DNA of 64,000 nt from Gemmatimonadota bacterium (GCA_040882465.1 JBBEBG010000001.1:57075-121074), one strand, 5' to 3'; shown: positions 11,921 through 58,427, counted from the stretch's first letter. A program made the numbers and translations. Notes: generated by a model not told the origin, from the sequence alone.

Positions 11921-11924
11921 GACA

Positions 11925-13663: not shown

Positions 13664-13682
13664 CCCAAACCGACGGAGGGCG

Positions 13683-20806: not shown

Positions 20807-20866
20807 CGATCCCGTGATGCGACCGAACCAGCGGCGTCCCTCACCCGCCCCCATTAGTTGAATCGG

Positions 20867-21697
20867 GTGGCGACCCCGCTTGTCGTGGACAGTCATGTGC
20901 ACCTCCACCCGGAGTTCGGGATCGGCGACTTCTTTTCGTCCGCCCATGCGAACTTCGAAGCCGCCGCGCGCGAAGCCGGCATCCCGAAGTGGCAAGGAGC
21001 CATTCTCTTCACCGAATCCGGCGGCGTCGAGCGCTTCACGGAACTCCAGGTCAGCGGGTCCGAGACTCACTCACGCGGGAGCTGGACGTTCGAGCCCACC
21101 GACGAGCAAGGTTCGCTGGTCGCCCGGAACGCGACAGGTGCGGAGCTCCTCCTGATTGCGGGAAGGCAGATCCGGGTCGAAGGGCGCCTGGAGGTGCTGG
21201 CGGTGTGCACGGCCAAATCTTTCCCCGACGGAGGACGGCTCGAGGAGGTGGCGCGCAACGTGAGGGCGGCGGGTGCCGTCCCGATCCTCCCCTGGGGATT
21301 CGGGAAGTGGTGGTCCAAACGCGGCGAGATCGTGGAGTCGGCGCTTCGACGAGCGCATCCCGGTGACTTTTTGCTCGGGGACTCCGGACAGCGGCCTCGA
21401 AGCCTCCCCCAACCGAAGCTCTTTCACCTCGCGCGCGAGCGCGGGATCCCGATCCTGAACGGCACCGACCCCCTTGATTATCCGGCCCAGGCCCGCCGCG
21501 TGGGGACATACGGATCGTTTCTCGATCTGGGTGGGGAAAGCGGCGGCCGGCCCTCGGAGATGCTCAGGGACACTCTCCTCGCCCTCTCCGCGACTCCTCC
21601 TTCCGTCGGTAGGCGAGTCTCCCTCGGCGGCTTCGTCTCTGCCCAAATCCGCATCCGAATCCCCATCGGGGGCTCCGGCACGAGGAGGCACCGATGA
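20867..21697 (+). CDS. Putative metal-dependent hydrolase (amidohydrolase/PHP-like)
   Basis: About 276 residues, from GTG 20867 (TTG 20858 is also possible). The N-terminus VVDSHVHLHPEF carries the H-x-H metal motif of amidohydrolase/PHP proteins. Further candidates are an acidic GDSGQRP segment (about 175) and LNGTDPLDYP (about 205), which could supply later ligands. No signal peptide or membrane helix is seen. The last 30 residues are low complexity. The stop overlaps the start of the FAD oxidoreductase gene by 4 nt, so the two are coupled. Substrate unknown; the motif supports the superfamily only. Confidence 0.65.
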   Translation: MATPLVVDSHVHLHPEFGIGDFFSSAHANFEAAAREAGIPKWQGAILFTESGGVERFTELQVSGSETHSRGSWTFEPTDEQGSLVARNATGAELLLIAGRQIRVEGRLEVLAVCTAKSFPDGGRLEEVARNVRAAGAVPILPWGFGKWWSKRGEIVESALRRAHPGDFLLGDSGQRPRSLPQPKLFHLARERGIPILNGTDPLDYPAQARRVGTYGSFLDLGGESGGRPSEMLRDTLLALSATPPSVGRRVSLGGFVSAQIRIRIPIGGSGTRRHR

Positions 21698-39883: not shown

Positions 39884-40011
39884 CCCATGCGCGACATGTA
39901 GTTGCGATGACCTCCGACCGGGACTCCCGCACCCGAAATGGCTCGCCGCCCAGGATCCCCATGGACCCTCCGGCCGTGAGTTGTTCGGGTGACTCATGAT
40001 AGAGGACCTGC

Positions 40012-43000: not shown

Positions 43001-43248
43001 ACCGCCAGTTCGTGGCCGATCTCCCTCGGAAGGACGGGGGCAACAGTCGGGCCGTCCGGGCAATCCTCGCCATGGCGGGGAGCCTTGGACTCGACGTGGT
43101 CGCCCCCGGAGTGGAGACGACCCTTCAGGAGGAAATCCTCCGGCAGCTCGACTGCCCCACGGCGCAGGGGTACCTCTTCTCGGCTCCCGTGGATGCGGAA
43201 AAAGCGGGCAGACTCCTCGAAGCGGGGCGACTCGGACCGCGGCGCTAG
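40012..43248 (+). CDS. MEDS-GAF-PAS-PAS-GGDEF-EAL signalling protein (c-di-GMP turnover)
   Basis: The 1078-residue cytoplasmic protein starts at GTG 40012 with GAGGA upstream. An N-terminal MEDS domain (about 10-190; HHCLIHRTEAELRAVLESFV) precedes a GAF (about 225-385) and two PAS domains (about 390-500 and 515-635; the second with RMTGFTEAEVLGQSF). The cyclase domain has an intact GGDEF (723-727), so it is likely active. The EAL domain has EALLRWEHPD (851 onward), DDFGSGS and LKMDRQF. The late motif is VAPGVET rather than VAEGVET, so a conserved Glu next to the catalytic region is lost. The net activity, synthesis or hydrolysis, cannot be told. Probable sigma-54 control links it to the EPS genes. 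Confidence 0.92.
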   Translation: MTESVSTPPAPHRSHGEHHCLIHRTEAELRAVLESFVQEGIRAGRRVILIGEGPSSVAFRVFEHHLDGSSGDARQHDQIEFKRIEECFEGGGQFDRYQGITFIREQLLFARDAGFEGLHLIQDMGALEKRSAGLRDLTAFEAGLNVLLGDKPCSVLCLYDRTRTSPELLLRALDLHPTELREGLTRHQNPFYQPEVEFRAAHAGELVEERLELLRRPTTVGAAAVEQDADTLLARVTRRIDVEGASRSGLARIGLEEIGRQVEADSARFYLVDPQDASLVERGMEEEIGEPERRVRGEGAAGRAWLARRPVWASSSMPPASGEVAADGGNQLALPLLAGTTVRGVLEFSMPKERHPDQGSMDRLEPVARVLGEALGRVRAEERLGEARGGLEGLLATSPDGIVVTDREGRIQTWNLAAVRLLGSSIGEVPVGRPLAGFLPFELRDRFQRALDVTAASGLSESPASYEILLPPSDPGASPITLTMTSWDVRGEACFVVKLRDHMDDRESRTQARLIENVASRAGREAMLVTTGNVQWGGPSILFANPAFCRMTGFTEAEVLGQSFRAFTGPKTAQDKLKVMWEHLQRGERASTEFVAYRKDGTEFLMRLEVSPIRDDHGQLTHFVAVQTDVSKDNGGDDKFLRADRDALTGLANRALLNKILRRAIERVQRNSELRFALLFLDLDGFKQVNDSLGHLIGDQLLVSVARRLEEAVRPGDILVRFGGDEFVILLEYVGGLADVLAVADRIQDRLAQPFRLEGRDLRLSASVGIALSDTGYATVEEVVRDADAAMYRAKEEGRGKYRIFDRTLREEALSEGRIRSELQSSLDRGEFRLHYQPLMDLGSGRISGVEALLRWEHPDRGLVAATEFISYAEAMKLILPLGRWVIRESCRQLRIWRDRLPPDVPLALSLNLSTRELLDPRAREWFEESISDSGVDPSSLQVEVSESFFARPQTEIENALAPLRDLGIRIGIDDFGSGSVSVGQLHRYPVDFLKMDRQFVADLPRKDGGNSRAVRAILAMAGSLGLDVVAPGVETTLQEEILRQLDCPTAQGYLFSAPVDAEKAGRLLEAGRLGPRR

Positions 43249-43529
43249 CACTTGCGTGAGAACGGGGGTAAAATGTCCGCCGATCCAAAGGGACGGGGGA
43301 TGAAAGGCCTTAACTCGATCGATGCAGCAGGACCGGGACGTGCCAAGGAGTCCGAGAGTGCAGTCCGGGCTGGAGCCGAATAAGCCGCTTGGAGGGGGTG
43401 AGATGTGAGAGGGACGACGGGGCGAAAAGCCGAGTCGAATGCCGCCAGAACGTGCCCCGGACTCGGATCCAGGCCGGTAGCAGAGGCTGGCCTGGCCGGC
43501 CGCTGCCGGCGCGCACCGCTCCGACTACC
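43249..43529 (+). other. Unassigned, probably structured 281-nt leader of the third GT4 gene
   Basis: The stretch contains CCAAG (about 43343) pairing with CTTGG (about 43388) around internal GGCT/AGCC pairing, and AGTCCG repeated 13 nt apart. I compared it by eye with c-di-GMP, THF, TPP and fluoride riboswitch consensus and found no match. No sigma-54 site with a TTGC box was seen; TGGAGCCGAATAAGCC at about 43370 has the spacing only. Confidence 0.35.
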
Positions 43530-44726
43530 ATGAGGATCCTGTTACTGGCGCCGCACGAGTTTTACATCGATCGCGGCACTCCGATGGACACGGATCTCCT
43601 CCTGCGCGCTTTGGGCGCCGGCGATCACCAGATAGATTTAGTCGTGTACGGTGGCGGGCAACACAGGGATTACCCAGGGGTGACGATTCACCGGGCGAAG
43701 ACGCCACGGTGGCTCACGGGAATCCGCCCCGGGTTTTCCTACAAGAAGGTCCTGGCCGACTTCTGGCTCTTCGCGGCGGCGAGGCGACTCGTGCGCCGCA
43801 ACAGTTATGACATCGTGCACGCGGGCGAAGAGGCCGTCTTCATGGCTCTCTGGTTTCGCTTCCGGCATGGGATTCCATACATCTACGACATGGACTCTGC
43901 GATAGCTCACCAGCTCGTGGAGGCAAGCCCCTGGCTCAAGCCCCTCAGAAAAGTCTTCGATTGGATCGTCGGATTGGCGCTCCGCCGTGCGATTGCGGTG
44001 GCCCCCGTGTGTCAAGCGCTCGCCGAGCTCGCCGAGTCTAATGGAGCCAAGCAGGTGGTCATTCTCCACGATATCTCCCAGCTTCAGAATCCTGGACGCG
44101 CTCCGACGGGGGAACTACGGCAGAGTCGAGGGATCCAGGGCCCGCTCGTGATGTACGTGGGAAACTTTGAGCGATACCAGGGGATCGCACTTCTCCTTTC
44201 GGCCTTTTCTCGGGCGGTCGCAAACGGATCGGACGCCGCGCTCGTCCTCGCCGGCGGCATCCCCTCGCACATCGCGAAATACCGTGAGGCTGCGGAGGAC
44301 CTCGGGATCGGTGATCGCACCCACTTCGTTGGCCACTGGCCTGCCGATCGCCTCGACGAGATTCTCGCCGAGGCGGACGTACTTGTATCCCCGAGAACCA
44401 GCGGGATCAATACGCCGATGAAGGTCTTCCCATTCATGCACTCGGGAAAAGCGTTACTCGCGACGGACATCCGAACGCACAACCAGATCCTCACCCCGGA
44501 CATCGCGCGCCTCGCCCCGCCCGAACCGGAGGCTTTCGCCGGGGCCCTCCTCGAGCTCTGCAACGATCCCGCGCTGCGCGAGCGGATTGGACAAGCAGGA
44601 AGGGCCTTCGTTGAGCAAAACCACACTTTCGAGGCCCACGTCAGGAGAGTGGAGGCCCTCTACCGCTTCATAGCCGAGCGGGTCGGGCAGTCGCCACTTC
44701 ATTCGACCGGCGGTCCGATAACTTGA
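43530..44726 (+). CDS. GT4 glycosyltransferase
   Basis: This 398-residue GT-B enzyme starts at ATG 43530. The N-terminus ILLLAPHEFYIDRGTPMDTD has the RGTP loop. DIVHAGEEAVFMALWFRFRH and PYIYDMDSAIAH parallel the paralogue at 31532. The C-terminal half has VMYVGNFERYQGIALLLSA, SPRTSGINTPMKVFPFMHSG and ATDIRTHNQIL. It stands alone, preceded by an unusual leader and convergent with the asparagine synthase gene. A small GGGG/CCCC hairpin lies in the 28-bp gap. The last 20 residues are low complexity. Confidence 0.92.
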   Translation: MRILLLAPHEFYIDRGTPMDTDLLLRALGAGDHQIDLVVYGGGQHRDYPGVTIHRAKTPRWLTGIRPGFSYKKVLADFWLFAAARRLVRRNSYDIVHAGEEAVFMALWFRFRHGIPYIYDMDSAIAHQLVEASPWLKPLRKVFDWIVGLALRRAIAVAPVCQALAELAESNGAKQVVILHDISQLQNPGRAPTGELRQSRGIQGPLVMYVGNFERYQGIALLLSAFSRAVANGSDAALVLAGGIPSHIAKYREAAEDLGIGDRTHFVGHWPADRLDEILAEADVLVSPRTSGINTPMKVFPFMHSGKALLATDIRTHNQILTPDIARLAPPEPEAFAGALLELCNDPALRERIGQAGRAFVEQNHTFEAHVRRVEALYRFIAERVGQSPLHSTGGPIT

Positions 44727-44754
44727 CGCCGTCGCCGGGGGCGGCCCCTCGAGC

Positions 44755-46674
44755 TCAACCCGTGGACGTGCCCGTGAGGGTCCGCCCCGGGTTCTCTGCT
44801 GGTGGAGCGGCGAAGAGTCGGTGCCAGACGAGAAGATTCAGGATCGCCCAGAGCACGTGGCTGTGGTTCGCTCGCCGTTCCATGTGCTCCTGGAGGAGGA
44901 TCCGCACGAAGGCACGATCGAAGCACTCCCCGATCAGAGTCGAGGACGCGAAGGTGTCCTCCATGAACTCCCTGAGCTCTCCCCGGATCCAATTCTTGAT
45001 CGGGAGGGAGTACCCCTGCTTTCCCCGGCCCCGAATCTCGTCGGGAAGAATCCCCCTCATGGCGCTTCGAAAGATGCTCTTCGTCCTGAACCCCTCCAGC
45101 TTGAGGTCGCTCGGTATGGTGCAGCAAAGTTCCGCGAACTCGTGGTCGAGGAAGGGGACCCTCACTTCGAGGGCATGCGCCATGCTCAACTTGTCCGCCT
45201 TGACCAAGAGCGAGTCGGGCATCGTCATACAGGTGTCCACGTAGATCTCCGCGGCGACTTCGTCATCCACCTCCGCTCCTTCGAGGATCCTCCGGACCGG
45301 GGCGAAGGGCCTGTCCGTCACCTGGGCTTGTACCTCGCGGGTGAAGAGCGACTCCTGCACGCGGGGCGTAAGGAAGTATTGCCAACGCATGTGGCGCCCC
45401 TCCTCGGGAAGCAAGCTTCCTTCGATGAAGCGCTTGAGGAGGTTGATGGACCCCTTCTTCTGCGGGCGATCCGGGAGGAGGTCGACGGCCTTCGCGATCG
45501 CGCCTTCCCTCAGTACGCGCGGGAGCGTCTCGTAGATTCGGTTTAGCTTACTCGCGCGGAACCGGTCGTATCCGCAAAGCAACTCGTCCCCTCCTTCACC
45601 TGAGAGGCAGACGGTGACGTGCTCGCGGACTTTCTTGCACAGGAGGTAGAATGGGACGGCTGAGAGGTCGGTCATCGGCTCGTCCAGGTGATAACACGAG
45701 GCCTCGATGGTCTCGGGAGTCACCGGGTCGATCCGGATGACGTGATGCTGGGTCCCGAAATATTTCGCGACAAAGTCCGCATACTCGAGCTCGCTGTACG
45801 ATCCGTCTTCATAATACAGGGAGAAAGTGTCGATCGGCACATCGGAGAGCCGACTCATCATCGCAACGATGGCGCTCGAGTCGAGCCCTCCGGAGAGAAA
45901 GACCCCGAGGGGCACATCGGAGACGAGCTGGCGCTCCACCGCGCGCTGCAGCGCCTCCCGAAGGAGCCGCTCATGCTCCCCGCGGTCGCGCGGGACCGCG
46001 CGGACGCGTAGGCGCCAGTAACGCTCAACCCTCGGCTCTTCTCCCGGAGCCCACGTGAGCGAATGGCCTGGCGCAAGGCGGCGCACCTGGCTGAAGATCG
46101 TTTCGGGTGAAGGGACGAATTCGTACCCCATGTACTTGTGGAGCGCGGCGAGGTCGAGCGAACGATCCACTTCGGGGCATTGGAGCAGCCCCTTGAGCTC
46201 CGACGCAAAAATGATGCGGCTCTCGGGCCCGGGAAGGACTGCGTAATACAGCGGCTTCACGCCGATCTGGTCCCGCGCCAAAAAGAGCTTCCGGCGCCTT
46301 ACGTCCCAAACCGCGAACGCGAACATCCCGTTGAAGCGCTCGACGCAGCTCGGGCCCCAGGCGGACCACCCGTGCACGATTACTTCGGTATCGGCATCGC
46401 TCTGGAAGTCGTACCCGAGCCCCCGCAGCTCCCGGCGGAGTTCCGCGAAGTTGTAGATCTCTCCGTTGTAAACGACCCAGACGGACCGGTCGGCATTCGT
46501 CATCGGCTGGCGTCCGCGCTCGCTCAGGTCGAGGACGCTGAGGCGACGGTGACCCAAAGACACCGTCTCGTCCGCGAAGACCCCATCCTGATCCGGACCT
46601 CGGTGCGCCTGGACCCGGGCCATTCTCTCGACTAACCGAGGGTCGTGCCAGGTGATGCCCGCGATTCCGCACAT
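44755..46674 (-). CDS. asnB: Glutamine-hydrolysing asparagine synthase (AsnB-like)
   Basis: The 639-residue protein has an N-terminal Cys2 glutaminase (MCGIAGI, RGPDQDG, VVYNGEIYN) and an ATP-pyrophosphatase synthetase domain with PPi loop SGGLDSS (261-267) and LSGEGGDELLCGYDRFR. Length and motif order are standard. In EPS clusters AsnB paralogues may amidate sugar uronic acids or another acceptor rather than aspartate, so the gene name is used by family only. It is the last gene of the operon starting at 51733 and lies 3 bp after the flippase stop. The last 25 residues are low complexity. Confidence 0.92.
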   Translation of the reverse strand: MCGIAGITWHDPRLVERMARVQAHRGPDQDGVFADETVSLGHRRLSVLDLSERGRQPMTNADRSVWVVYNGEIYNFAELRRELRGLGYDFQSDADTEVIVHGWSAWGPSCVERFNGMFAFAVWDVRRRKLFLARDQIGVKPLYYAVLPGPESRIIFASELKGLLQCPEVDRSLDLAALHKYMGYEFVPSPETIFSQVRRLAPGHSLTWAPGEEPRVERYWRLRVRAVPRDRGEHERLLREALQRAVERQLVSDVPLGVFLSGGLDSSAIVAMMSRLSDVPIDTFSLYYEDGSYSELEYADFVAKYFGTQHHVIRIDPVTPETIEASCYHLDEPMTDLSAVPFYLLCKKVREHVTVCLSGEGGDELLCGYDRFRASKLNRIYETLPRVLREGAIAKAVDLLPDRPQKKGSINLLKRFIEGSLLPEEGRHMRWQYFLTPRVQESLFTREVQAQVTDRPFAPVRRILEGAEVDDEVAAEIYVDTCMTMPDSLLVKADKLSMAHALEVRVPFLDHEFAELCCTIPSDLKLEGFRTKSIFRSAMRGILPDEIRGRGKQGYSLPIKNWIRGELREFMEDTFASSTLIGECFDRAFVRILLQEHMERRANHSHVLWAILNLLVWHRLFAAPPAENPGRTLTGTSTG

Positions 46675-46677
46675 GGG

Positions 46678-48114
46678 TCAGTTAGGCCCTCCGGTGGTCC
46701 CGGCGGGCTCCCCGACCAGCCCCCGCCATAGCTCCCCGAGCTCGGAAGGCCGAACGAAGCCCACCCCGGCGAGCCCGGCCGCGGCCGCGGCCATGGCGAC
46801 GAGGGCGGCGAACGGGCCCTCGAGTCCCGTCAGGCCGAGCGCGAGCGCGGCGACGCCCGCGGCCACGCACACGCCGAGCACGCGTTTCGCGAGTGTCACC
46901 CTGAGTCGCGGTTCGCCCAGACCCCACAGATAGAGGAGGAGAAGAAATCCCTCCGCGGCCACGACCGTTCCCGCCGCGCCCGCGGCGCCGAAGGAGGGAA
47001 TCAATAGGAGGTGCCCGATCCCCGCCCCCGCAGTCGCCACCGCGAGCGCCCCCGTCCTCCAGGCATGCCGATCCCGCGTCGTGAGGACGGTCTGAAAGGC
47101 CACGAGGATGAACTTGAGGGCAAAGCTCACGCTCAAGATGCGCAGGACCACGGTCGCGCCGGCGTATTCCGGCCCGAACACGACCCCGATTAACCACTCC
47201 GCGCTCGGGTAACAGGCGACGGCGAGGAGGAGCCCCGCCGCAGCGCTCAGTCGCACGAAACCGTCCGCGGAGCGCCGGTAGATCTCGTCGTTCCCATGGC
47301 TTTGTTGGAAGAGTTGAGGCGACACGACGCGAGCCCCGAGAATCGGCACTTTCGCGGCCAGGTCGAGGAGCTTATAGGCGGCAGCGTAGACCCCGACCTG
47401 CGGCATCGTGGCAAGAACCGACAAGAGGATGAGATCAATCCGGTAGAAGATCTGCCCGAGGAGGCCAGTCAATCCGTAAAGATAGCTCTTCCGCAGGATG
47501 GCCGGGGCTCCCGCAAGTCGCACCTTGGGGCGCTCGGCGCGCCAGGTCAGCAGGCCCCAAAATCCGGTCACGAAGATTCCGCCGACGACGTATCCGACCC
47601 CCACTCCGAAAAGCCCGGAGCCGAGCCCGATGGCGGCGAGCACACACCCCGCAATAGCCACGGGGGTCCCGCCCTGGAAGAACCCGTTGACCACCATGCG
47701 CTCCCTCGCGGCATACACGGCCGAGAGAGAGTCCTGCATGGCGAGAGCGAGGAAGTAGAAAAAGAAGATCAGGTAAAACGAGACCGCCCGGTCGTCGTAT
47801 CCGAAGGCTGCGAGACCCCACGCCGCGAGCGGATAGAGGACCGCGAAACCGAGGAGCTTCAACACCACGGTCGTACCCAGGAGCTCTGGAATGCTCTTGG
47901 AGTCCCGAGACCCCGACTCGATGAGCTGCCAGCTCATCCCGAGATCCACGACGAAGAGGCTGGTCAGCCCGAGCGCGTAAACGGACGAAAAGACGCCGTA
48001 TTCCTCGCTCCCGAACTCGCGGGCGACGATGACCTCGATCGTGATGAAGGCTACCTGGGCAACGACACCGCCCACGGCGAGGGCGACGGCGTTCGAGGCC
48101 ATCCGTCTCAGCAT
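46678..48114 (-). CDS. Polysaccharide flippase (Wzx/MOP superfamily), copy 2
   Basis: The 478-residue protein has about 12 to 14 helices, beginning AVALAVGGVVAQVAFITIEV, with the short REFGSEEYGVFS loop typical of MOP transporters. It differs clearly from copy 1 at 29009 in loop sequences. It would translocate a lipid-linked glycan. It is the fifth gene of the operon epimerase, FkbH, ACP, acyltransferase, flippase, asparagine synthase, 13 bp after the acyltransferase stop. Two flippases and no recognised Wzy-type polymerase in the window is an open point. Confidence 0.9.
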   Translation of the reverse strand: MLRRMASNAVALAVGGVVAQVAFITIEVIVAREFGSEEYGVFSSVYALGLTSLFVVDLGMSWQLIESGSRDSKSIPELLGTTVVLKLLGFAVLYPLAAWGLAAFGYDDRAVSFYLIFFFYFLALAMQDSLSAVYAARERMVVNGFFQGGTPVAIAGCVLAAIGLGSGLFGVGVGYVVGGIFVTGFWGLLTWRAERPKVRLAGAPAILRKSYLYGLTGLLGQIFYRIDLILLSVLATMPQVGVYAAAYKLLDLAAKVPILGARVVSPQLFQQSHGNDEIYRRSADGFVRLSAAAGLLLAVACYPSAEWLIGVVFGPEYAGATVVLRILSVSFALKFILVAFQTVLTTRDRHAWRTGALAVATAGAGIGHLLLIPSFGAAGAAGTVVAAEGFLLLLYLWGLGEPRLRVTLAKRVLGVCVAAGVAALALGLTGLEGPFAALVAMAAAAAGLAGVGFVRPSELGELWRGLVGEPAGTTGGPN

Positions 48115-48127
48115 CGTGCCCCCGCGC

Positions 48128-48655
48128 TTATCGGCGGACGAAGATGATCCGGGCCGGATTACCCTGGACGATCGCGTTGTCGGGGACCTTTCCGGACACC
48201 ACCGAGTTCGCGCTGACGATGACCCCCTTCCCGACCTCCGCCCCGTCGAGGATCACGACATTGGACCCGATCCAGACGTTGGACCCGATTCGGATTCCCT
48301 TGGACGGTTGCCCCTGCAGCCGCATCGGCACTTGGATGTCCGAGTAACCGTAGTTGCTCGCAGTGATGGAACAGCCCGGTCCGATCAAGCAGTCATCTCC
48401 GATCTCGAGACCCGAGATTCCTGCAGAGATGAAGCAATTCGTAGCCACATGAACGTCGCGCCCAATAGAAATTGGTCCATCGCTCGCCTTCACCTTGGAG
48501 AACGAGCCGATCCGGGTTCCCCGCCCCATTCTGAGATTCCCGGTCAGGTCCACTTCGGCTTTGGCGCTCACGAGTGCGCGATCCCTCAGGTAATAGTAGA
48601 GGGTTAGGACCGGCCCGAAGACCAGGAACCGTCGGATGAAAGTCCCAGCCTTCAT
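48128..48655 (-). CDS. Hexapeptide-repeat (left-handed beta-helix) acyltransferase
   Basis: The 175-residue protein starts at ATG 48655, sharing one base with the ACP stop. Repeats of the [IVL]-G-x4 type run through the middle and end (ISIGRDVHVATNCFIS, IGDDCLIGPGCSIT, IRIGSNVWIGSNVVIL), with the common C-terminal GNPARII. A short N-terminal hydrophobic stretch (RFLVFGPVLTLYYYL) may anchor it. The family transfers acetyl or other acyl groups from CoA or ACP. The gene next to it encodes an ACP and a FkbH protein, so the donor could be glyceryl-ACP rather than acetyl-CoA (inference). Confidence 0.88.
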   Translation of the reverse strand: MKAGTFIRRFLVFGPVLTLYYYLRDRALVSAKAEVDLTGNLRMGRGTRIGSFSKVKASDGPISIGRDVHVATNCFISAGISGLEIGDDCLIGPGCSITASNYGYSDIQVPMRLQGQPSKGIRIGSNVWIGSNVVILDGAEVGKGVIVSANSVVSGKVPDNAIVQGNPARIIFVRR

Positions 48656-48879
48656 CACCGGCGCCCGGCAACGATCCGCGCGAGCGCGGCAAAGCTGTCC
48701 ACCCCCTGGATCTCGTCCATGCTGAGCCGGAGGCCGAAGGTCTCCTCGACTGCCGACATGATCTTGAGGTGGCTCAGCGAATCCCAACGGTCGCCGAGCC
48801 CCGGTCCGAGATCGTCCCGCACCTCGGACGGATCAAGGTCAAGGATGTCTGCGACGATCGAGCGCAACTCGGGGTTCAC
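48655..48879 (-). CDS. Acyl carrier protein
   Basis: This 74-residue ACP starts at GTG 48879, overlapping the FkbH stop by 4 nt. The phosphopantetheine attachment site is Ser34 in GDRWDSLSHLKI, with acidic residues before and after. The helix pattern EVRDDLGPGLGDRWDSL and SMDEIQGVDSFAAL is typical. Placed between FkbH and an acyltransferase, it probably carries a glyceryl or other small hydroxyacyl group rather than fatty acids. Too short for most automatic calls but clear by motif. Confidence 0.92.
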   Translation of the reverse strand: MNPELRSIVADILDLDPSEVRDDLGPGLGDRWDSLSHLKIMSAVEETFGLRLSMDEIQGVDSFAALARIVAGRR

Positions 48880-50732
48880 ATCACCTCGTCGTGGATTCGG
48901 ATGTGGGGGCAGGGGATCTCGGTGGCGCTCGAGGTTTCGAGCGCATACCGACGGATCCCGTCGTCTTCTTCGGACACGAGCGTGAAGCCCTGGTCCGCAA
49001 GGAAGCTCACCGCCGGGGCGTTTCGGGCGGTCGGAACGAAGGTCGCCGTGATGCGGTCCACGCGGGGTCCGTAACGTCCTTTCAGACGGTTCATCAGGGC
49101 GGTCTCGGCGCCCCTTCCCAAAGCTCGGCAGCTCATCAGAAAGTTCTCGAGGTCGGCGGCCGCACCCTCGCGGCGAACGAGATGCATGGCGATCACTCCC
49201 ATGTCTCCGAAGCGATCCTTCAGCCGCGCGATGGTCAGGTCGTAGTTCCCGTCCTCGACGAATCGTTCGAGCTCGGCCGGCGTGTATCGGCGTGTCGTGA
49301 GATTGAACTGGTTCGTTTTGGTGACGAGCTGGTGCACGCGGGCGAGATCGTCGCCGGTGGCGGGACGGACGAAGATCTCGGTCTCCAGTGCCGCGAGGAA
49401 CACCCCCATGTCCGTGGCGCCGCGTTCGAAGCTGAGCCTCCGGCTCTGCTGGACGTACTGCGCCGTCTTGGCCCGGTCGTCCGTGGTGATGTCGAGACGG
49501 TCGAAGAGCGCCGACTTGCGGAGGGCCATCGCGTATCCGGCCGGGTCCGCCGGGAGCTCGATGACGGCAACCTCCGGGAGGGCTCCACGGACCATAGTAC
49601 GTTCCGCGGGATTGTCGTCGACGAATGCCAGGGCGTCCGTCCCGATGTTGAGCTCCGCGGCGAGCGCGACGAGATTCGCCGGCTTCTGATTCCAGTTGAT
49701 CCGCTCGGCAACGAAATCCTCGCGCCGGAGGGGCATCTCCGGGTGGGCGGCGAAGGCGGCGTCCACGTCCGCGACGTTGTTTTTGCTGCAGAGGGCGAGC
49801 ATGACCCCCCTTCCCTGGAGCCCCTTGAGCGCTCGCTGGAAGTCGGCGAAGGCCTCTCCCGCCGCCGAGCTCGGTCCGATCTGGAGCCCATGCGGGCCAT
49901 CTTCTCCGACGATTCCCCCCCACAATGTGTTGTCGAGATCCACGACCAGGCACTTCCGCGCCGCGCCGCGGAGCGCCCCCTCGTATCGGAGGATCTCCTC
50001 GGCCACGCGGCCGGTGAATCCTTCCCGCCAGGGAACCTTTGCGACGTGGTAGAGACGGTCGTCGAGGGCACGCTCGGATCCGTACGCGGCGACCAACCGG
50101 TCCAAGTCGAGGATTCGCACCCGCCGCTCCGTTCGGTATCTCCGTTGGAGCTCGAGGTTGATCTCGAGGTAAAATTCTCCCTCGCCGAGCTCCTGCCCCG
50201 AATCCGCCGGGCCGAAGGCGGCCTCGAGCGGACGCGGAAAGTTCGCGACAAGGAGGAGCGCCTGGGTGGCCCCGAGGGCCGCACGAACCCAGTCGTCCAC
50301 CTGTCCGAGGATCTTCTCCCGCTCGGAGGTCCGCCGCGTCAGGTCGAGCGAGGCGAACGCACCATGCACCTCTGGAGAGAGCGCTCGCATCGTAAGGCTT
50401 AGGAATACGAGCCCCGGCTGAAACTGGCCGAAACCGGACCCTTCGTCCAGGACGGCCTGGATATACTGACCAAACGGCCCAGTCCAGGCGCTCGCGTTCA
50501 CTCCGCGAATCGCGGCGTGCACGGGAATTCGCACCGCGAGAGGCTCTAGCGTGTGGTTACCTAGAACGGCCACCCGTGTGGGCGCCCCACCCATCGGATG
50601 GCGCCGTAGGGCCCGCGATACCAGCTCCACGTCGCGCGAGGTGAGCGCCGTGGCGTCGAGGCTTCCTACGAGGGCGTGGAGCGAAACCGCGCTTTCAGCT
50701 GCCCGGATCTCCGACAGCGCTTCGGGTCTCAC
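48876..50732 (-). CDS. FkbH-type HAD phosphatase with SGNH-like and GNAT-like domains
   Basis: About 618 residues from GTG 50732, overlapping the epimerase stop by 4 nt. The N-terminal 240 residues resemble the alpha/beta region of FkbH proteins. The HAD core begins CLVVDLDNTLWGGIVGEDG (catalytic DxD at about 264-266), with CSKNNVADV and FVDDNPAERTMV as later motifs. The C-terminal 150 residues look GNAT-like (VRPATGDDLARVHQLVTKTN, SCRALGRGAETALM). By family, FkbH dephosphorylates 1,3-bisphosphoglycerate and loads glycerate on an ACP. The ACP gene follows directly, which strongly supports this role. Confidence 0.92.
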   Translation of the reverse strand: MRPEALSEIRAAESAVSLHALVGSLDATALTSRDVELVSRALRRHPMGGAPTRVAVLGNHTLEPLAVRIPVHAAIRGVNASAWTGPFGQYIQAVLDEGSGFGQFQPGLVFLSLTMRALSPEVHGAFASLDLTRRTSEREKILGQVDDWVRAALGATQALLLVANFPRPLEAAFGPADSGQELGEGEFYLEINLELQRRYRTERRVRILDLDRLVAAYGSERALDDRLYHVAKVPWREGFTGRVAEEILRYEGALRGAARKCLVVDLDNTLWGGIVGEDGPHGLQIGPSSAAGEAFADFQRALKGLQGRGVMLALCSKNNVADVDAAFAAHPEMPLRREDFVAERINWNQKPANLVALAAELNIGTDALAFVDDNPAERTMVRGALPEVAVIELPADPAGYAMALRKSALFDRLDITTDDRAKTAQYVQQSRRLSFERGATDMGVFLAALETEIFVRPATGDDLARVHQLVTKTNQFNLTTRRYTPAELERFVEDGNYDLTIARLKDRFGDMGVIAMHLVRREGAAADLENFLMSCRALGRGAETALMNRLKGRYGPRVDRITATFVPTARNAPAVSFLADQGFTLVSEEDDGIRRYALETSSATEIPCPHIRIHDEVM

Positions 50733-51733
50733 GCCCGGACCTGCTCCGCGGGAATGTACCCATGGGTGCGGTACCACTTCCCGGTCTCGCGGAGCCCCTC
50801 ATCAATGCCGACTCGGGGCTCGTACCCCAGGTCGCGCCGCGCGCGATCGATGCGGAAGGCGCGAACCTGGCGGAACCAATCCACGCGCCGCGGAAAAATC
50901 GGGGGCTCGATTCCGAAGGGCTTGCAGATTTTTTCGCAGAGATGGCCGAGGACGATCAGCGGGAGAATGGGAAATCTGGGGACGCGGACCGCGACCCCGA
51001 TCGAGTGGCCCACCCGCTTCACGAGCTCATCAATCGGGAAGTACTCGGCATCCGCGATGATGTACGCCTTCCCGGCTCCCGCCCCCGGCGCCATTGCCAA
51101 AACAAAGGCGTCTACCAGGTTGTCGATGTAAACGGGGTGGTAGTAAGTCGTCCCGGACCCGAACATCGGAAAGAAGCCCTTCGCGGCCCGCTTGTAGATC
51201 ATGACGAAACGGCCGGGGTCGCCCGGGCCGTAAATCGCGGTCGGACGCAGGATCGTGAATTCGATCCCTCCGACCGCGAGGCGGCGCACCTCGAGCTCGC
51301 CCTCGTATTTCGTCTTCTGGTAGAAGTCGGCGGGCGCGATGGGGGAGTTCTCGTCCCCCGGAGGAGACTCTATGTGCCCATGCACCCCCTGCGTGCTGCA
51401 ATATACGAGCTTCCGGGCTCCCGCGGCGATCGCCTCTTCGACGACGACCTGCGTCCCGAAGACGTTGACCTCGCGGTAGAGGGCGTCGGGAACACCGACC
51501 TCGCGAAACGCCGCGGCGAGATGGTGGACGACTTCCGCGCCCCGAACGCAGTCGCGGACCATGTCTCGATCCGCCACGGTTCCGTACACGACTCTCGCGC
51601 CGGCCGCCCTCAGCTCCGCGTCCATCAGCCCTGGCTGCTTGTCGAGAACTGTGACCTCATGCCCGTCAGCCAACAACCTTCGGACCAGGGCAGCACCCGT
51701 GAACCCCGTCCCCCCCGTCACGCAGACCTTCAT
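50729..51733 (-). CDS. NAD-dependent epimerase/dehydratase (extended SDR)
   Basis: The 334-residue protein starts at ATG 51733. VCVTGGTGFTGAALVRRLL is the NAD site, VVHHLAAAFREVG follows, and STQGVHG plus the catalytic YQKTKYEGE (Y-x-x-x-K) are present. PTAIYGPGDPGRF and YHPVYIDNLVDAFVLA complete the family pattern. It is closer to 3-beta-hydroxysteroid or dihydroflavonol-type SDRs than to GalE, so the substrate need not be a nucleotide sugar. It is the first gene of the operon ending at 44755, with a sigma-54-like site 67 bp upstream. Confidence 0.87.
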   Translation of the reverse strand: MKVCVTGGTGFTGAALVRRLLADGHEVTVLDKQPGLMDAELRAAGARVVYGTVADRDMVRDCVRGAEVVHHLAAAFREVGVPDALYREVNVFGTQVVVEEAIAAGARKLVYCSTQGVHGHIESPPGDENSPIAPADFYQKTKYEGELEVRRLAVGGIEFTILRPTAIYGPGDPGRFVMIYKRAAKGFFPMFGSGTTYYHPVYIDNLVDAFVLAMAPGAGAGKAYIIADAEYFPIDELVKRVGHSIGVAVRVPRFPILPLIVLGHLCEKICKPFGIEPPIFPRRVDWFRQVRAFRIDRARRDLGYEPRVGIDEGLRETGKWYRTHGYIPAEQVRA

Positions 51734-52015
51734 CCAGACCCCTGAGTCGAATTGCCCTGATCCGTCCCGCGCACGCACCCGCACGCGGTATGGCAGCGCT
51801 GCAAGAATCACGCCCTTGAGCTCAACAGGTTCGGATGAGCATGGGAGCGGACTTCACCGCGTCTGACGCGGGAATCGACCGACTAGGCAATGTGGAAGTG
51901 TTGCGCCGATTCGGCACCCCAAGAAGGGACTCCACGGGGTAGCCGGTGGGCGATCCAGGTGCCGCTCGCCTGGGCGCTTCGCGGAAGGACGGACCCGGTG
52001 ACTCGATTATCCTGT
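51734..52015. other. Intergenic region between the EPS operon and housekeeping genes
   Basis: The region holds the sigma-54-like site at 51800-51815 and, toward its right end, the dusB terminator. Open frames across it show no motif or ribosome binding site. It marks the right border of the EPS region. Confidence 0.5.
51800..51815 (-). promoter_or_regulatory. Candidate sigma-54 promoter for the six-gene FkbH/ACP operon
   Basis: The minus strand reads GGGCGTGATTCTTGCA: GGC, G at position 7, exact GG-N10-GC spacing and a perfect TTGCA. Positions 1, 5 and 6 depart from consensus. It lies 67 bp before ATG 51733. Confidence 0.7.
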
Positions 52016-52035
52016 GCAGGGGGCCGGCCCCCTGC
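52016..52035 (-). terminator. Perfect palindrome after dusB, probable terminator
   Basis: GCAGGGGGCCGGCCCCCTGC is a perfect 20-nt palindrome beginning 3 nt after the dusB stop codon on the minus strand. No T tract follows, so it is probably a hairpin terminator of the kind common in GC-rich genomes. Confidence 0.65.
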
Positions 52036-52038
52036 GGC

Positions 52039-53076
52039 TCACCTCCCTGCCAACACAGGCGAGTGGACCGGCCGCTCTGCTCGGGATGCGGAGAAACGGC
52101 CGAGATAACTCGCGATGCGTTCTCGGATCTCTTCGAGAGACGTTACCCGAAACAACTCCTGCCTGAGCTCTCGGCCCCCGGGAAGCCCCTTCGTGTACCA
52201 TCCCAGGTGTTTCCGAAACTCGAGGATGGCCTTCTCAGGCGCCCCCCCGAAGTCGATGGCGTTTTGCGCATGTTCGAGGCAGATGCCGAACCGTTCCTCG
52301 ATGCCGGGATCCGGAGGGACGGGCTCACCCGACAGGGCCGCCCGGGCCTGGCGGAAAATCCAGGGATCCCCATGGGACCCACGCGCGATCATGATCCCGT
52401 CGCACCCGGTTTCGTCGCGCATCCGCGCGGCGTCTTCCCCAGTCCGAATGTCGCCGTTCCCGATGACCGGCACGGACACGCCCTCCTTGAGCCTGCGAAT
52501 CTCGTCCCAGCGGGCTTTCCCCGAGTACATCTCCGCTCGGGTCCGGGGGTGAAGGGTGATCGCACGCGCCCCGGCGTCTTCACACACTCGACCGATCCGG
52601 ACGGGATCCCGGGTTTGTTCGTCGAACCCGCTCCGAATCTTCACCGTCGTAGGAAGGGGGGTGGACTCCGTCACCGCCCGTACAACCTCAGACACGAGGC
52701 CGAGGTCCCGTAGGCACCCGGATCCTCCGTTCCGCTTGACGACCTTCTTCACCGGACAGCCGAAATTGATATCCACGAAGTCTGGCCCGAAGGCCTCGTA
52801 CACGTGGGCCGCCGCCTCGGCCATCACGGCCGGATCGGCCCCGAATATCTGAACGCCGATCGGGTGCTCCGCCTCCGCGAATCGAAGGTGTTCGAGGCTG
52901 CGTTCGTTTCTCCGGCAAATCCCGTCGGCGCTCACGAACTCGCTCACGACCACGTCGGCCCCGAATCGGCGACAGAGGCGCCGGAAGGGGGACTCGCTCA
53001 CCCCGGCCTGGGGGGCGAGGTAGAGCGGCGTCTCCATGTTAGTCAGATGCTGGAGGACGTTGACGGCCATACACAT
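52039..53076 (-). CDS. dusB: tRNA-dihydrouridine synthase, DusB type
   Basis: The 345-residue protein starts at ATG 53076 with GAGGAG eight nt upstream; ATG 53037 is an alternative. FMN-binding TIM barrel motifs are YLAPQAGVSESPFRRL, VQIFGADP, DFVDINFGCPVKKV (conserved catalytic Cys), TTVKIRSGFD, TLHPRTRAEMYSG, PVIGNGDIRTGEDA and MIARGSHGDPWIF. It reduces specific uridines in tRNA D-loops. It diverges from ptsN. Unlike in E. coli it is not followed by fis. Confidence 0.94.
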   Translation of the reverse strand: MCMAVNVLQHLTNMETPLYLAPQAGVSESPFRRLCRRFGADVVVSEFVSADGICRRNERSLEHLRFAEAEHPIGVQIFGADPAVMAEAAAHVYEAFGPDFVDINFGCPVKKVVKRNGGSGCLRDLGLVSEVVRAVTESTPLPTTVKIRSGFDEQTRDPVRIGRVCEDAGARAITLHPRTRAEMYSGKARWDEIRRLKEGVSVPVIGNGDIRTGEDAARMRDETGCDGIMIARGSHGDPWIFRQARAALSGEPVPPDPGIEERFGICLEHAQNAIDFGGAPEKAILEFRKHLGWYTKGLPGGRELRQELFRVTSLEEIRERIASYLGRFSASRAERPVHSPVLAGR

Positions 53077-53142
53077 AAGGTACTCCTCAGGGATCCGGTC
53101 GAGAAGCGTGAAGTCGAGGCGTCTCTTCGCGACGGCGTGGCT

Positions 53143-53171
53143 TTGACTTCGCCTCGGGCATCCTGTAAGGT
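53143..53171 (+). promoter_or_regulatory. Sigma-70-type promoter for ptsN
   Basis: TTGACT (53143-53148), a 17-nt spacer and TAAGGT (53166-53171) match TTGACA-N17-TATAAT at 5 of 6 and 3 of 6 positions. The ptsN start is about 80 nt beyond the expected transcription start. It contrasts with the sigma-54-like sites of the EPS genes. Confidence 0.7.
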
Positions 53172-53257
53172 TCGAGGCTCAAGTGATTCCAGGTGTGACA
53201 GTGAGGCCCGTTTGGCGGGACGCCCTTTCGGGGGCCCCCGGCCTTGGAGATGATAGA

Positions 53258-53710
53258 ATGAAGCTACGGGAGTTCTTCACGCTCAGCGCCGTCAAGCTCG
53301 GGCTGGAGGCGAAGAGCAAAGACGATGCCCTGAAGGAGCTCATCGGGCTCCTCGGACTCGATGACAAGTCGCAGGCCATCCTCTTCAAGACTCTCAAACG
53401 GAGGGAGAATCTCGGCTCCACGGGGATCGGCAAGGGAATCGCGATCCCGCACTGCCGGTCTCTCGTAGTGAGTACACTCCGACTCGCTTACGGGAGGAAG
53501 CCGGGAGGGATGGACTTCAACTCGATCGATGAGGAGCCGGTCCATCACTTCTTCTTGATCGTGGCTCCCCCCCTCGAGGTATCGAACCAGTACCTTCCGG
53601 TCCTCGGAAAGATCGCTCAGTTCGCTAAGGACCCGGACGTTCCGCGGCGACTTTCCGCAATCTCCGACCCGGAAGACTTCCTTCGCCTCTTGGAAGAACG
53701 GGCTCCCTGA
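53258..53710 (+). CDS. ptsN: PTS nitrogen regulatory EIIA (PtsN-like)
   Basis: The 150-residue EIIA-Ntr/fructose-family domain starts at ATG 53258 with GGAGA upstream. The phosphorylated His is His65 in GKGIAIPHCR. HHFFLIVAPPLEV and the C-terminal LSAISDPEDFLRLLEE fit. In Gram-negative bacteria it takes phosphate from the nitrogen PTS or HPr and regulates potassium, nitrogen and envelope functions. HPr and EI are encoded 8 kb away at 59641-61700. It stands alone with its own promoter. Confidence 0.92.
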   Translation: MKLREFFTLSAVKLGLEAKSKDDALKELIGLLGLDDKSQAILFKTLKRRENLGSTGIGKGIAIPHCRSLVVSTLRLAYGRKPGGMDFNSIDEEPVHHFFLIVAPPLEVSNQYLPVLGKIAQFAKDPDVPRRLSAISDPEDFLRLLEERAP

Positions 53711-53858
53711 CGGTTTCAGAGGGAAAAGCCGCGGGAGGCAGGTCGAAAGACTTGAGAGGCGACCCCGACCGAGGTGGCCGGACTTCGGAAACCACGGAGG
53801 GAGAGAGTGAAGCGGGGTGCGCGATTGCGGGGCACCGCCAGGTCCAAGGCGGCCCGCC

Positions 53859-54314
53859 TTATCCGCCGCTGATGAACACGCGACGGCTCTCCGAGCGGCC
53901 GTTTACGGTCAACTCTACGATGTAGCTCCCCCAGGCCACCGGAATCCCCGAGGAATCGCGGCCGTCCCAAAATGCCTCAAAACGACCCGGAGCGACGTAC
54001 TCCAAGTCCAGAACTGGTGTCCCGTCTCCCGCCGGGTGATTCAGCGCCGTGGGGGAGCCCACGTGCTGCAGAAGGATGTCAAATATCCGGATCGTGACCA
54101 CGACCGGACGGCCTTCCGCGAACAGCACCTCGAAGAGCTCGAAGGGAATCCGGGTTTCCGTGGTGAACGGATTCGGATAGTTGCTTCCGAGCCGAAACCC
54201 CGACGCGGGGATCTCCGGAGGCCCGACGGTCGCCCCTCCCACTTGTGCCGCGATGGAGTCCGGGAGGGACAGGGTGGAGAGCAGGACGATCAGGACGCCA
54301 ACGGCGTGCCTCAT
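53859..54314 (-). CDS. Secreted FlgD-like/T9SS-type C-terminal domain protein
   Basis: The 151-residue protein starts at ATG 54314 with GGAGG upstream. The signal peptide (AVGVLIVLLSTLSLPDSIAAQ) ends at about residue 24. The mature part begins with FRLGSNYPNPFTTETRIPF, the NYPNPF motif of FlgD-like and T9SS sorting domains, and ends with WDGRDSSGIPVAWGSYIVEL, the usual WDGRD-x-G-x2-V-x2-G-x-Y signature. It consists of little else, so it is either a minimal structural protein or the tail of a lost longer gene. No T9SS gene is in the window. Confidence 0.85.
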   Translation of the reverse strand: MRHAVGVLIVLLSTLSLPDSIAAQVGGATVGPPEIPASGFRLGSNYPNPFTTETRIPFELFEVLFAEGRPVVVTIRIFDILLQHVGSPTALNHPAGDGTPVLDLEYVAPGRFEAFWDGRDSSGIPVAWGSYIVELTVNGRSESRRVFISGG

Positions 54315-54467
54315 CCTCACCTCCGTGAAGCTGTAGCAGTGGGGAAATAGCCCTCCCGGGTACATGCCCGAACACGCATCGAACGTCTTCAACAATGGAC
54401 ACCGCTCCTAGCGGGCGTCAAGCCAAATCGGCAAGGGACCTACGTCGCTGGCCTGTGTGCACGGGCG

Positions 54468-55238
54468 TCACTCCCCCACGGTCGCCGGATCCAGGAGCGG
54501 ACGGAGCATTGCGACGGAACGAAAAGTCCGCCCTGGGGCGAGATGATGGAGGGCGAAATCCTCCAGCAGCGCCAGATGCGCACGACTCCCCTGAAGCGCC
54601 GATGGAGGTGCTCCGCGAACGAAGGTGGCGAGGTCTCTCCGCGCCGTCTTTCCAACCCGGGGGAGAGGTGACCCCTCCGAGCAGCCCGGGCAACGCAGGC
54701 CTCCCGCCGCGGCATCGAATCGGTCGAACAGACCGTCGTCGGCCCCCCCGAGGTCTTTTCCACAACCGGCACAGTGGTCCAGGTCAGGCGCGAAGCCGAG
54801 GAGCGACAACGTCCTCCATCCCCCGGCCAGGATCCACCCGGCCAACTCACTTTCAGGAGCTGTCCCAAGGTGGATCAGGACCGATCGGATCCAGGCATAA
54901 AGCGGCGGATCTCCCTCTTGTAACGCATGGGCCAGGAGAAGTTCCACGAGCAGGGATGCTCCAAGAAACCGTCGCAAGTCTCGCCCGAGTGAGGTCGCGC
55001 CCGTGGTCTTGTGAAAGTCGCGGAGGGTGTGGAGCTCCCGGTCGGGTCGGTGCGAGAAGGTCAGGAGCCCCTCTCCGAACGTATCCGGAAGCCCTCCGGA
55101 TGAGGCACCGCGCCGGGCGATCCCTTTCCCGATCAAAGCGACGACACCGAAGTCCGGGGTCAGGAAACGTAGAATTCGCGAAGACTCGGAATAGGGGTGG
55201 GAGCGGAGGAGGATCCCGGGAGTAGTGACGAGCCTCAT
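54468..55238 (-). CDS. recO: DNA repair protein RecO
   Basis: The 256-residue protein has the N-terminal OB-fold (TTPGILLRSHPYSESSRILRF, with GVVALIGKGIARR) and a helical C-terminal domain with a zinc ribbon: CAGC at about 166 and CPGC at about 192. It loads RecA with RecR in the RecF pathway. Its start overlaps the end of the upstream membrane-protein gene by 4 nt, so it is translationally coupled to it. Confidence 0.93.
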   Translation of the reverse strand: MRLVTTPGILLRSHPYSESSRILRFLTPDFGVVALIGKGIARRGASSGGLPDTFGEGLLTFSHRPDRELHTLRDFHKTTGATSLGRDLRRFLGASLLVELLLAHALQEGDPPLYAWIRSVLIHLGTAPESELAGWILAGGWRTLSLLGFAPDLDHCAGCGKDLGGADDGLFDRFDAAAGGLRCPGCSEGSPLPRVGKTARRDLATFVRGAPPSALQGSRAHLALLEDFALHHLAPGRTFRSVAMLRPLLDPATVGE

Positions 55239-56398
55239 CGCCTGGGGCCCGGCGGTCTCGGCCCCGCCTCCAGCTCGGCCAGGAGCGCCTCCCGGAGTCG
55301 GCGATACCGCCCCTCACCACCCTTTTCCTTTCCGGCCGAAGCTCTGAACTCTTCATCCAGGCGGGCAATCTCGACGAGGACGTCTCTACGGAGGCGCGCC
55401 GGGGCGACGGCCGGTCCCGGTCCGGAGGCCGCCGCCCCCTTCGACGACCCCCTCCCCCCCCGCTGAACGACCCACACGCCCGCGAGAACGAGGAGGAGAG
55501 CGAGGGCCACCGAGAGCCATCCCATGACCTGCGGAGTCTCTCGGCCCGACCGGATTCGCACGACCTGATCCCGAAGCCCCTGGCCGAACCAGACGCGGTC
55601 GGTCGAGAGGAGCCCGATCTCCTCCGGGGCGATTCCCGCGAGCCCCTCGACGGTGAACGGGGGTGTGGACTCCCGCGCGATCAAGAGCGCCGTCTCGACC
55701 TCGCCGGGAAGCGGGATCTCCACGGAAAGTGAATCCAGCTCGTACTGGATCCAGTAATAACTTCCGTCGGGGGTCACGGGGTTCGTCGTCAGGAGCGATC
55801 CCCCCTCGAAACGAACTTCTCCCGCAGCCGGACCGGCTTCGATCACGCGAAATGTCCTCAGACTTGCCGGGAGCGGGTACCGCCACACGACCCCCCCGGC
55901 TCCGTCCGGGACATAGGTCACCGACCTGGGATTCGCGAGGACGAATCGGTCCGTCACAACCCACCCCATGGGACCCTGCTCGATCCAGAGCTCCCGGGTC
56001 CGGACCGGGAAGGCGATCCCTCCCGGGGGAGCGGGCTCCGTATTGAAGGTGCGGATCGTATAGAGGGAGTCCAGATCGGCGGGGGCTTCGATGATCCGAC
56101 CGTAGTAAAGAATGCCTTCGAAGCGGCTCGCGGCGAAAAGCGTCTCACCTGACCCGGAGACCGGGACCCCCGGAAGGGTGAGGGTGAACCGCCCCTCATT
56201 TCCCACGGTCACCGAATCCACGGCCCCGGCTTCTTCCGGCGTCACGCGGTGGAGGACCACCGTCCCGGTGTCGGCAGGAATCGAATCCCAGAGGAGCTGG
56301 CCGGAAATCACGGCCTGAACTTCTTCCTGACCCTGAGCGGCCCAAGGGATCCCGAGGAGGAGGATGCCCGAAATAAGGAGCAGGGCGGACCGGCGCAT
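55235..56398 (-). CDS. Hypothetical exported protein with one C-terminal membrane helix
   Basis: The 387-residue protein starts at ATG 56398. A Sec signal peptide (RRSALLLISGILLLGIPWAAQG) is followed by a strand-rich extracytoplasmic region of about 270 residues (VISGQLLWDSIPADTGTVVL; VTVGNEGRFTLTLPGVPV resembles carboxypeptidase-regulatory-like strands). A helix (MGWLSVALALLLVLAGVWVV) precedes a basic, coiled-coil-like cytoplasmic tail ending PPGPRR. I recognise no named family. It is coupled to recO and follows the DUF151 gene; the tail layout recalls proteins with a cytochrome-biogenesis-like coiled coil, but this is not firm. Confidence 0.7.
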   Translation of the reverse strand: MRRSALLLISGILLLGIPWAAQGQEEVQAVISGQLLWDSIPADTGTVVLHRVTPEEAGAVDSVTVGNEGRFTLTLPGVPVSGSGETLFAASRFEGILYYGRIIEAPADLDSLYTIRTFNTEPAPPGGIAFPVRTRELWIEQGPMGWVVTDRFVLANPRSVTYVPDGAGGVVWRYPLPASLRTFRVIEAGPAAGEVRFEGGSLLTTNPVTPDGSYYWIQYELDSLSVEIPLPGEVETALLIARESTPPFTVEGLAGIAPEEIGLLSTDRVWFGQGLRDQVVRIRSGRETPQVMGWLSVALALLLVLAGVWVVQRGGRGSSKGAAASGPGPAVAPARLRRDVLVEIARLDEEFRASAGKEKGGEGRYRRLREALLAELEAGPRPPGPRR

Positions 56399-56421
56399 GC
56401 CGGAGGTCGGGCGAGGCTTCC

Positions 56422-56955
56422 TCAGGGGGAGAAGCGCCCGAAGTCTTCTGGATTCAGGCGCCTCAGGTACTCCTTGAGCTCTTCGGCGTTCGTGAAAGGA
56501 GAGGGCTCCGCCTCGGGTTCGGCCTCCACCTCCTTGGCCGAGGACTCCTCCGAGGCAACCTCGATAGACGCGATCTCCAGGAGGTCGTCTTCCGCGAAGA
56601 TCCGGGCATCGGCGCGAAGCGCCACGGCGATGGAGTCCGACGGCCGTGCGTCCACGCTGATCGTGTCCCCGGTCCGCTGGATGACGAGCTCCGCATAATA
56701 GGTGGCATCCGCCACTTTCGTGATGACGACCCGGTCGAGATTTCCGCCGAGTCCGGCGACCACGGAGACGAGGAGATCGTGCGTCAGGGGGCGGGAAAAC
56801 TTCATGTCGGCGAGCTGCATCGCGATGGCGCTCGCTTCGCCGGGGCCGATCCAGATCGGGAGCACGCGATCCCCAGAGACCTCTTGGAGGATCAGCACGG
56901 GCGTGTTCGACGCTCGGTCCAGCCCCAAGCTCTGCACCTTCACTTCGACCAACAC
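56422..56955 (-). CDS. Bifunctional nuclease family protein (DUF151)
   Basis: The 177-residue protein begins VEVKVQSLGLDRASNTPVLI and contains RVLPIWIGPGEASAIAMQL and VDARPSDSIAVALRADARIF, the two best-conserved DUF151 motifs. An acidic C-terminal tail of about 45 residues (ESSAKEVEAEPEAEPSP) extends the domain. Homologues have DNase and RNase activity in vitro. It is not a catabolic enzyme of known pathway. It follows ahcY by 26 bp and precedes the membrane-protein/recO pair, all on the same strand. Confidence 0.92.
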   Translation of the reverse strand: MLVEVKVQSLGLDRASNTPVLILQEVSGDRVLPIWIGPGEASAIAMQLADMKFSRPLTHDLLVSVVAGLGGNLDRVVITKVADATYYAELVIQRTGDTISVDARPSDSIAVALRADARIFAEDDLLEIASIEVASEESSAKEVEAEPEAEPSPFTNAEELKEYLRRLNPEDFGRFSP

Positions 56956-56981
56956 GGTTCTCTCTCCTCCGCAGGTCTCCG

Positions 56982-58427
<1,446 letters not shown>

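Follow-up and report, generated by a model that had tools for sequence, protein, structure and literature searches.

FkbH domains load D-1,3-bisphosphoglycerate onto a carrier protein and dephosphorylate it, leaving a glyceryl group on the carrier (PMC8949500; PMC7489565). In the tetronate glycerate-utilisation operon (Mad7/Mad8), an FkbH-like protein and a stand-alone acyl carrier protein (ACP) are proposed to carry out this loading of glycerate from 1,3-bisphosphoglycerate (PMC7489565). Likenesses of another kind come from surface glycans. The O-polysaccharide locus of Flavobacterium psychrophilum encodes a dedicated ACP (wfpD) feeding a sugar-acylating, PglD-type acyltransferase (wfpG), and its R-group genes vary between strains whose loci are otherwise identical (PMC6519341). 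In Campylobacter, the FkbH-domain gene cj1302 is part of a surface-glycan locus, and the sugar carries a group derived from glycerate (PMC3958885); we infer that the gene and the group are linked. Gellan gum is an exopolysaccharide bearing a glycerate ester (PMC9104527). With these three cases, precedents for glycerate or ACP-fed acylation of surface glycans exist already. Among the papers searched, no direct experimental work turned up on the genes for gellan glycerylation or on FkbH at polysaccharide loci.

The window analyzed here is a stretch of 64,000 nucleotides from a Gemmatimonadota bacterium. On its minus strand, six genes lie head to tail at 44755-51811, in the order SDR-FkbH-ACP-AT-Wzx-AsnB. 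The extended SDR, of the sugar-epimerase/dehydratase type (50729-51811; PF01370, 117 bits), has a likely start at MKVCVTGG, giving a protein of about 334 residues, and its gene overlaps the start of the FkbH gene by four bases. The FkbH-family protein, a predicted glyceryl-ACP synthase of 618 residues (48876-50732; TIGR01686), is encoded with a four-base overlap to a stand-alone ACP of 74 residues (48655-48879; PF00550, phosphopantetheine site Ser34), and the ACP gene overlaps by one base that for a hexapeptide (left-handed beta-helix) acyltransferase (AT) of 175 residues (48128-48655). After a gap of 13 bases comes a Wzx-like polysaccharide flippase (46678-48114; PF01943, 41 bits; PF13440, 38 bits) and, after another three bases, an AsnB-like glutamine amidotransferase of the XrtA/EPS type (44755-46674), which scored 572 bits with TIGR03108, below the cut-off of 817, and 497 bits with TIGR01536, above the cut-off of 267. 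This last protein, which resembles the XrtA/PEP-CTERM amidotransferase and closes the run, may amidate uronic acid or other carboxyl groups. The family scores of FkbH, ACP and AT are not due to chance. Coordinates and scores together bear out what the sequence-only reading had described, i.e., FkbH, a 74-residue ACP with Ser34 and a hexapeptide AT in overlapping or adjacent genes followed by a flippase; its gene list, although right about the triad and the flippase, had omitted the overlapping SDR gene, the AsnB gene and the conserved partners that lie at 18-23 kb and at 43-45 kb.

The window FkbH is a member of the FkbH domain family (TIGR01686, 264 bits; cut-off 146.65), and the sole match to that model in the genome. 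It also matches HAD-IIIC (TIGR01681, 57 bits; cut-off 35.75), while FkbH_N (PF21211) scored 24.5 bits, slightly below its cut-off of 27, in a region across which the PDB entry 3slr aligns. This entry (BF1531), the only related one found in the PDB, is listed there as an uncharacterised protein. The HAD motifs of the window protein are D265xD267, S316-K317, K350 and D372-D373, and toward the C terminus there are NQxN (474-477) and S534-C535-R536 motifs. Residues D265, D267, S316, K350 and D372 were present in 139 of 139 relatives, and C535 in 138; the window protein retains these near-invariant residues, with both its HAD and SCR motifs intact. We take the HAD motif residues to be catalytic, as in the family generally. 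Because the described precedents load D-1,3-bisphosphoglycerate and the window FkbH retains the near-invariant residues, the protein most likely makes D-glyceryl-ACP.

In a tree of 138 FkbH proteins, the window protein grouped with those of loci L144, L185 (genome G536) and L076 (Calothrix) in a four-member clade (SH-aLRT 100), lying deeply apart from other branches; identity between the window FkbH and the other members was 39-44%. The short FkbH proteins (L010-L017 type) and the large fused ones form separate branches. In all four loci of the clade FkbH and ACP are followed by an AT, and in Calothrix a MaoC dehydratase-KR fusion (L076:12035-13660) lies between the ACP and the AT.

The ACP scored 32.6 bits with PF00550 (cut-off 20.8), and its Ser34, which sits in a W-D-S-L motif, is invariant across seven cassette ACPs. 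FkbH is, then, adjoined by a cognate ACP with its attachment serine, the gene context of a glyceryl-ACP synthase. This ACP is one of eight PP-binding matches in the genome, which elsewhere contains two candidate phosphopantetheinyl transferases, one of them above the cut-off.

By its hexapeptide repeats (PF00132, 61 bits; PF14602, 45 bits) the AT belongs to the hexapeptide superfamily. Its best NCBIfam match was the WbbJ-like sugar O-acetyltransferase model (NF007240), for which its score of 89 bits was below the equivalog cut-off of 243. Tyr102 aligned with a histidine of the sugar O-acetyltransferase 3ftt; this histidine, on a loop of the beta-helix, is presumably catalytic, as in WbbJ/LacA-like enzymes, and the window AT does not have it. 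Tyrosine occupied the position in all eight aligned members of the AT clade. Lacking the histidine, the window AT could use an altered mechanism or be inactive. Structure prediction gave a low-confidence model of it (pLDDT 65), and a fold search was uninformative. The His-to-Tyr change was considered as an exclusive marker of ACP-fed ATs and rejected, because several cyanobacterial hexapeptide proteins are also of the Tyr type (L221, L222, L224, L226, L228, L229, L230 and L232), and neither FkbH nor an ACP was detected in their flanks of about 1.5 kb.

The AT of the window falls in a small, distinct clade, the members of which scored 172-310 bits (alignment A2), against about 115 bits for the next best hexapeptide protein in 540 genomes; that of L144 lies outside the clade (80 bits). 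Members occurred in six genomes, all six with FkbH, compared with FkbH in 79 of the 540 genomes overall. Since three of the six belong to one genus, this co-occurrence is only suggestive, and the count overstates independence, not representing six separate cases. In three same-class loci from this genus (L252, L249 and L150), an AT-clade member stands with a distant FkbH lineage, an ACP, AsnB and GT4, and the SDR is 61% identical to that of the window. One and the same AT clade is thus combined with two FkbH lineages. Around an extra AT-clade copy (G135:C186; L250), neither FkbH nor an ACP was present within about 9 kb.

An EPS core occupies the window at 1-14 kb, comprising genes for a Wza-like protein (1773-2549), a Wzc-like protein (4181-6733), a priming glycosylphosphotransferase (9807-10730), a GT2 (10736-12061) and a GT4 (11925-13688). 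An XrtA-system polysaccharide deacetylase (19421-20302; 290.7 bits, above the cut-off of 276.2), further glycosyltransferases (GTs) and another flippase are present as well. With flippase, export and priming genes all in the region, it has the composition of a Wzx/Wzy-type EPS locus; no Wzy polymerase was identified in the EPS-locus check of the window region. The triad had been placed inside an EPS operon. The Wza-like, Wzc-like and priming GT genes are indeed in the same window, but they stand about 37-47 kb from the triad.

Several other genes of the window have counterparts in related loci. A GT4 glycosyltransferase assigned by Pfam (43389-44726, plus strand) is 38-49% identical to proteins of L252, L076, L185 and L263; it is a single gene in the window and two adjacent half-ORFs in cyanobacteria (L076:3549-4739, L185:2386-3691, L263-L271). 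A protein resembling PHP-type metal phosphoesterases, with a DSHVHLH motif (20858-21697, plus strand; 32-34% identity to the L076 and L185 proteins), matched no Pfam family, and a fold search with a model of low confidence (pLDDT 58) returned 7rty, PsfC (prob 1.00) and 2anu, of the PHP family (prob 0.99). Its gene overlaps that of a GlpD-like homologue of FAD-dependent glycerol-3-phosphate dehydrogenase (21694-23196, plus strand; NF009906, 117 bits, cut-off 352; PDB 2rgh, E 2.5e-35), which is 35-41% identical to related-locus proteins. The GlpD-like and PHP-like genes (window 20858-23196; L185:3735-6874) are conserved partners of the glycan pathway in two phyla. An ArnC-like GT2 of the polyprenyl-phosphate sugar transferase type (18471-19424, minus strand; NF007986, 184 bits, cut-off 529) shows 43-52% identity to proteins of L076, L185 and L252. 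ARAGORN reported two tRNA-Ala genes, at 25750-25827 and 33295-33380, at least the first of which is probably spurious because it lies inside a GT4 reading frame (25504-27123).

With a single FkbH sequence as query, neither viral nor genome contigs gave a match, and an alignment query was needed. The alignment-based scan of genome contigs yielded at least 590 stretches, among which 587 encode relatives and 80 loci were kept; among the matches listed, the kept loci represented many phyla of bacteria as well as archaea. With others fetched in addition to these 80, 104 FkbH loci were examined. An ACP gene was found on the same strand within 2.5 kb of FkbH in 88 of them, and directly downstream in 72. 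Hexapeptide ATs peaked at less than 2 kb from FkbH (24 loci, followed by 12, 2, 5 and 2 per 2-kb bin, as raw counts that include loci cut by contig ends), and GT4 and GT2 genes were common within 10 kb. FkbH-ACP pairs are thus found widely next to glycan genes, and the window locus, as one member of this arrangement, is not unprecedented. In Asgard and Nitrososphaerota archaea (L028, L030, L033, L035, L040, L041, L045 and L046), FkbH mostly has an ACP directly downstream, with hexapeptide ATs nearby; in these archaea, ordinary lipid synthesis would give no reason to expect an ACP.

In L144 (genome G073, same class), whose FkbH was the best-scoring relative in the phylum sample (44%), FkbH-ACP-AT lies inside a locus that also encodes a Wza-like protein, a priming GT and an exosortase. 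Homologues of the window's EPS core are found there, with identities of 58% for the priming GT, 52-53% for the GT2 and GT4, and 39% for the Wzc-like protein. This locus ties the triad to an EPS locus more firmly than does the window by itself.

The two cyanobacterial loci of the FkbH clade, L076 and L185, share GT4, GlpD-like, PHP-like, SDR and ArnC-like GT2 genes, the window counterparts of which lie at 18-23, 43-45 and 50-52 kb. Used as a search query, the PHP-like protein had matches in 11 of 242 cyanobacterial genomes. In the eleven loci the genes were ordered GT4N-GT4C-GlpD-(YdjM)-PHP-(methyltransferase)-SDR, except in L267, where PHP preceded GT4N. Directly after the SDR gene, nine of the eleven had neither FkbH nor ACP but a longer hexapeptide protein, AT2, which does not belong to the AT clade, whereas the other two (L185 and L076) had FkbH-ACP-(MaoC-KR)-AT. 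The proteins of L185 and L266 are 93% identical for GT2, 84% and 80% for the GT4 halves and 76% for GlpD, and the loci differ at the site after the SDR; with closely similar flanks and the module present versus absent, this pair is a natural gene-swap experiment. The window combines homologues of the cyanobacterial core genes with the FkbH version of the module. Among all the observations, this exchange is the strongest evidence for the module. On its simplest reading, the exchange having been observed in cyanobacteria, outside the window's own lineage, AT2 and FkbH-ACP-AT would perform a corresponding step, acting on the same or a neighboring sugar with different acyl groups. A role for the upstream SDR in processing glyceryl-ACP was considered and dropped. 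Because homologues of this SDR occur in FkbH-free cyanobacterial loci, its distribution suggests that it is part of the sugar core and not of the acyl module.

We consider it probable that FkbH, ACP and AT form a single exchangeable module serving acylation in a surface-glycan pathway, in which D-glycerate loaded by FkbH is passed by the AT to a sugar. FkbH would start from a three-carbon acyl phosphate, which on the precedent of its family is D-1,3-bisphosphoglycerate, remove the remaining phosphate and load D-glycerate on the phosphopantetheine arm of the ACP, from which the AT would move it to a hydroxyl or amino group of the sugar. The SDR/GT pathway would supply this acceptor, either as a nucleotide sugar or in lipid-linked form, and the transfer would precede flipping by Wzx. 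There is good support for the three proteins acting together on a glycan and not in a polyketide line. The claim of the sequence-only reading that the polymer is decorated with glycerate therefore stands in part: a triad acting on a glycan agrees both with the conservation of its order in surface-glycan loci and with the exchange of the whole block for an AT gene, whereas glycerate as the acyl group, drawn by analogy from FkbH chemistry, is something we infer, as are the loading reaction, the acceptor and the choice between ester and amide.

An unlikely variant of this scheme is that glyceryl-ACP is processed before transfer, by dehydration and reduction to a lactyl-like group, by oxidation or by methylation, the sugar then carrying a derived hydroxy-acyl group and not glycerate. 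In 30 of the 104 loci, MaoC or KR type genes did lie no more than 2 kb from FkbH, and in those glyceryl-ACP may be converted to another hydroxy-acyl such as lactyl; the Calothrix fusion has its place between ACP and AT, and the Campylobacter group is a di-O-methylated glycerate (PMC3958885). However, the window run from SDR to AsnB contains no MaoC, KR or methyltransferase gene, L185 and L144 have none between FkbH and AT, and the SDR, being common to FkbH-free loci, falls to the sugar core. No paper on FkbH with lactyl starters turned up in a literature search. Also unlikely, in our view, is that the AT works as an ordinary sugar O-acetyltransferase, using acetyl-CoA, and that the neighboring FkbH-ACP pair serves some other purpose, e.g., making a small metabolite. 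The resemblance of the AT to the WbbJ-like family, the AT-clade member in L250 and the Tyr-type proteins away from FkbH are all consistent with this idea, but it fits poorly with the overlapping genes, with the ties of the AT clade to two FkbH lineages, and with the way in which the whole block takes the place of one AT gene, always at the same site.

The remaining alternatives concern the FkbH protein itself. Its clade is deeply separated, at 39-44% identity to the window protein, and has no characterised member, 3slr being likewise uncharacterised; these points favor an FkbH that loads an acyl phosphate other than 1,3-bisphosphoglycerate, which we regard as very improbable given that 139 proteins, drawn from all branches sampled, share the near-invariant residues. 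Precedents for FkbH-ACP loading do come from polyketide and nonribosomal peptide pathways (PMC7489565, PMC8949500), yet a polyketide-style supply of methoxymalonyl or tetronate biosynthesis is hardly credible at this locus. There was no FabH-like ketosynthase in the run at 44755-51811, a ketosynthase model (FabF-type seed) found none in the window at 40001-58000, and a ketosynthase was detected in 1 of the 104 loci. Neither does the run at 44755-51811 include the set of two dehydrogenases and an O-methyltransferase of a methoxymalonyl-ACP operon (FkbG-K type), and the short and large fused FkbH proteins lie on other branches of the tree. The earlier remark that this use of FkbH differs from its polyketide use is upheld by these results.

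Returning to glycerate transfer by a mobile module, a broader proposal can be made with somewhat less than even confidence. The commonest natural role of FkbH might be as the donor half of a mobile FkbH-ACP-AT glycan module, spread over many phyla and some archaea and handling D-glycerate or acyl groups derived from it, here with a Tyr-type clade of ACP-fed ATs. If this is true, the genes would form a signature predicting glycerate-type groups on bacterial polysaccharides, the charge, gel behavior and antigenicity of which such groups alter, and a widespread, uncharacterised branch of the FkbH family would gain a function.

The proposed product and route set the locus apart from each of the known systems that it resembles. 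In the tetronate operon, a FabH-like protein joins glycerate to the polyketide (PMC7489565), whereas at this locus (window 40001-58000) no ketosynthase was detected and the next gene encodes a sugar-type hexapeptide AT. In F. psychrophilum the acyl group is 3,5-dihydroxyhexanoyl, which is proposed to come from FAS-like enzymes and not from FkbH, and the transfer step is a predicted one (PMC6519341). The Campylobacter glycan is an O-glycan of flagellin bearing methylated glycerate (PMC3958885), unlike the product proposed for the window. Finally, gellan carries L-glycerate (PMC9104527), whereas FkbH chemistry should give D-glycerate.
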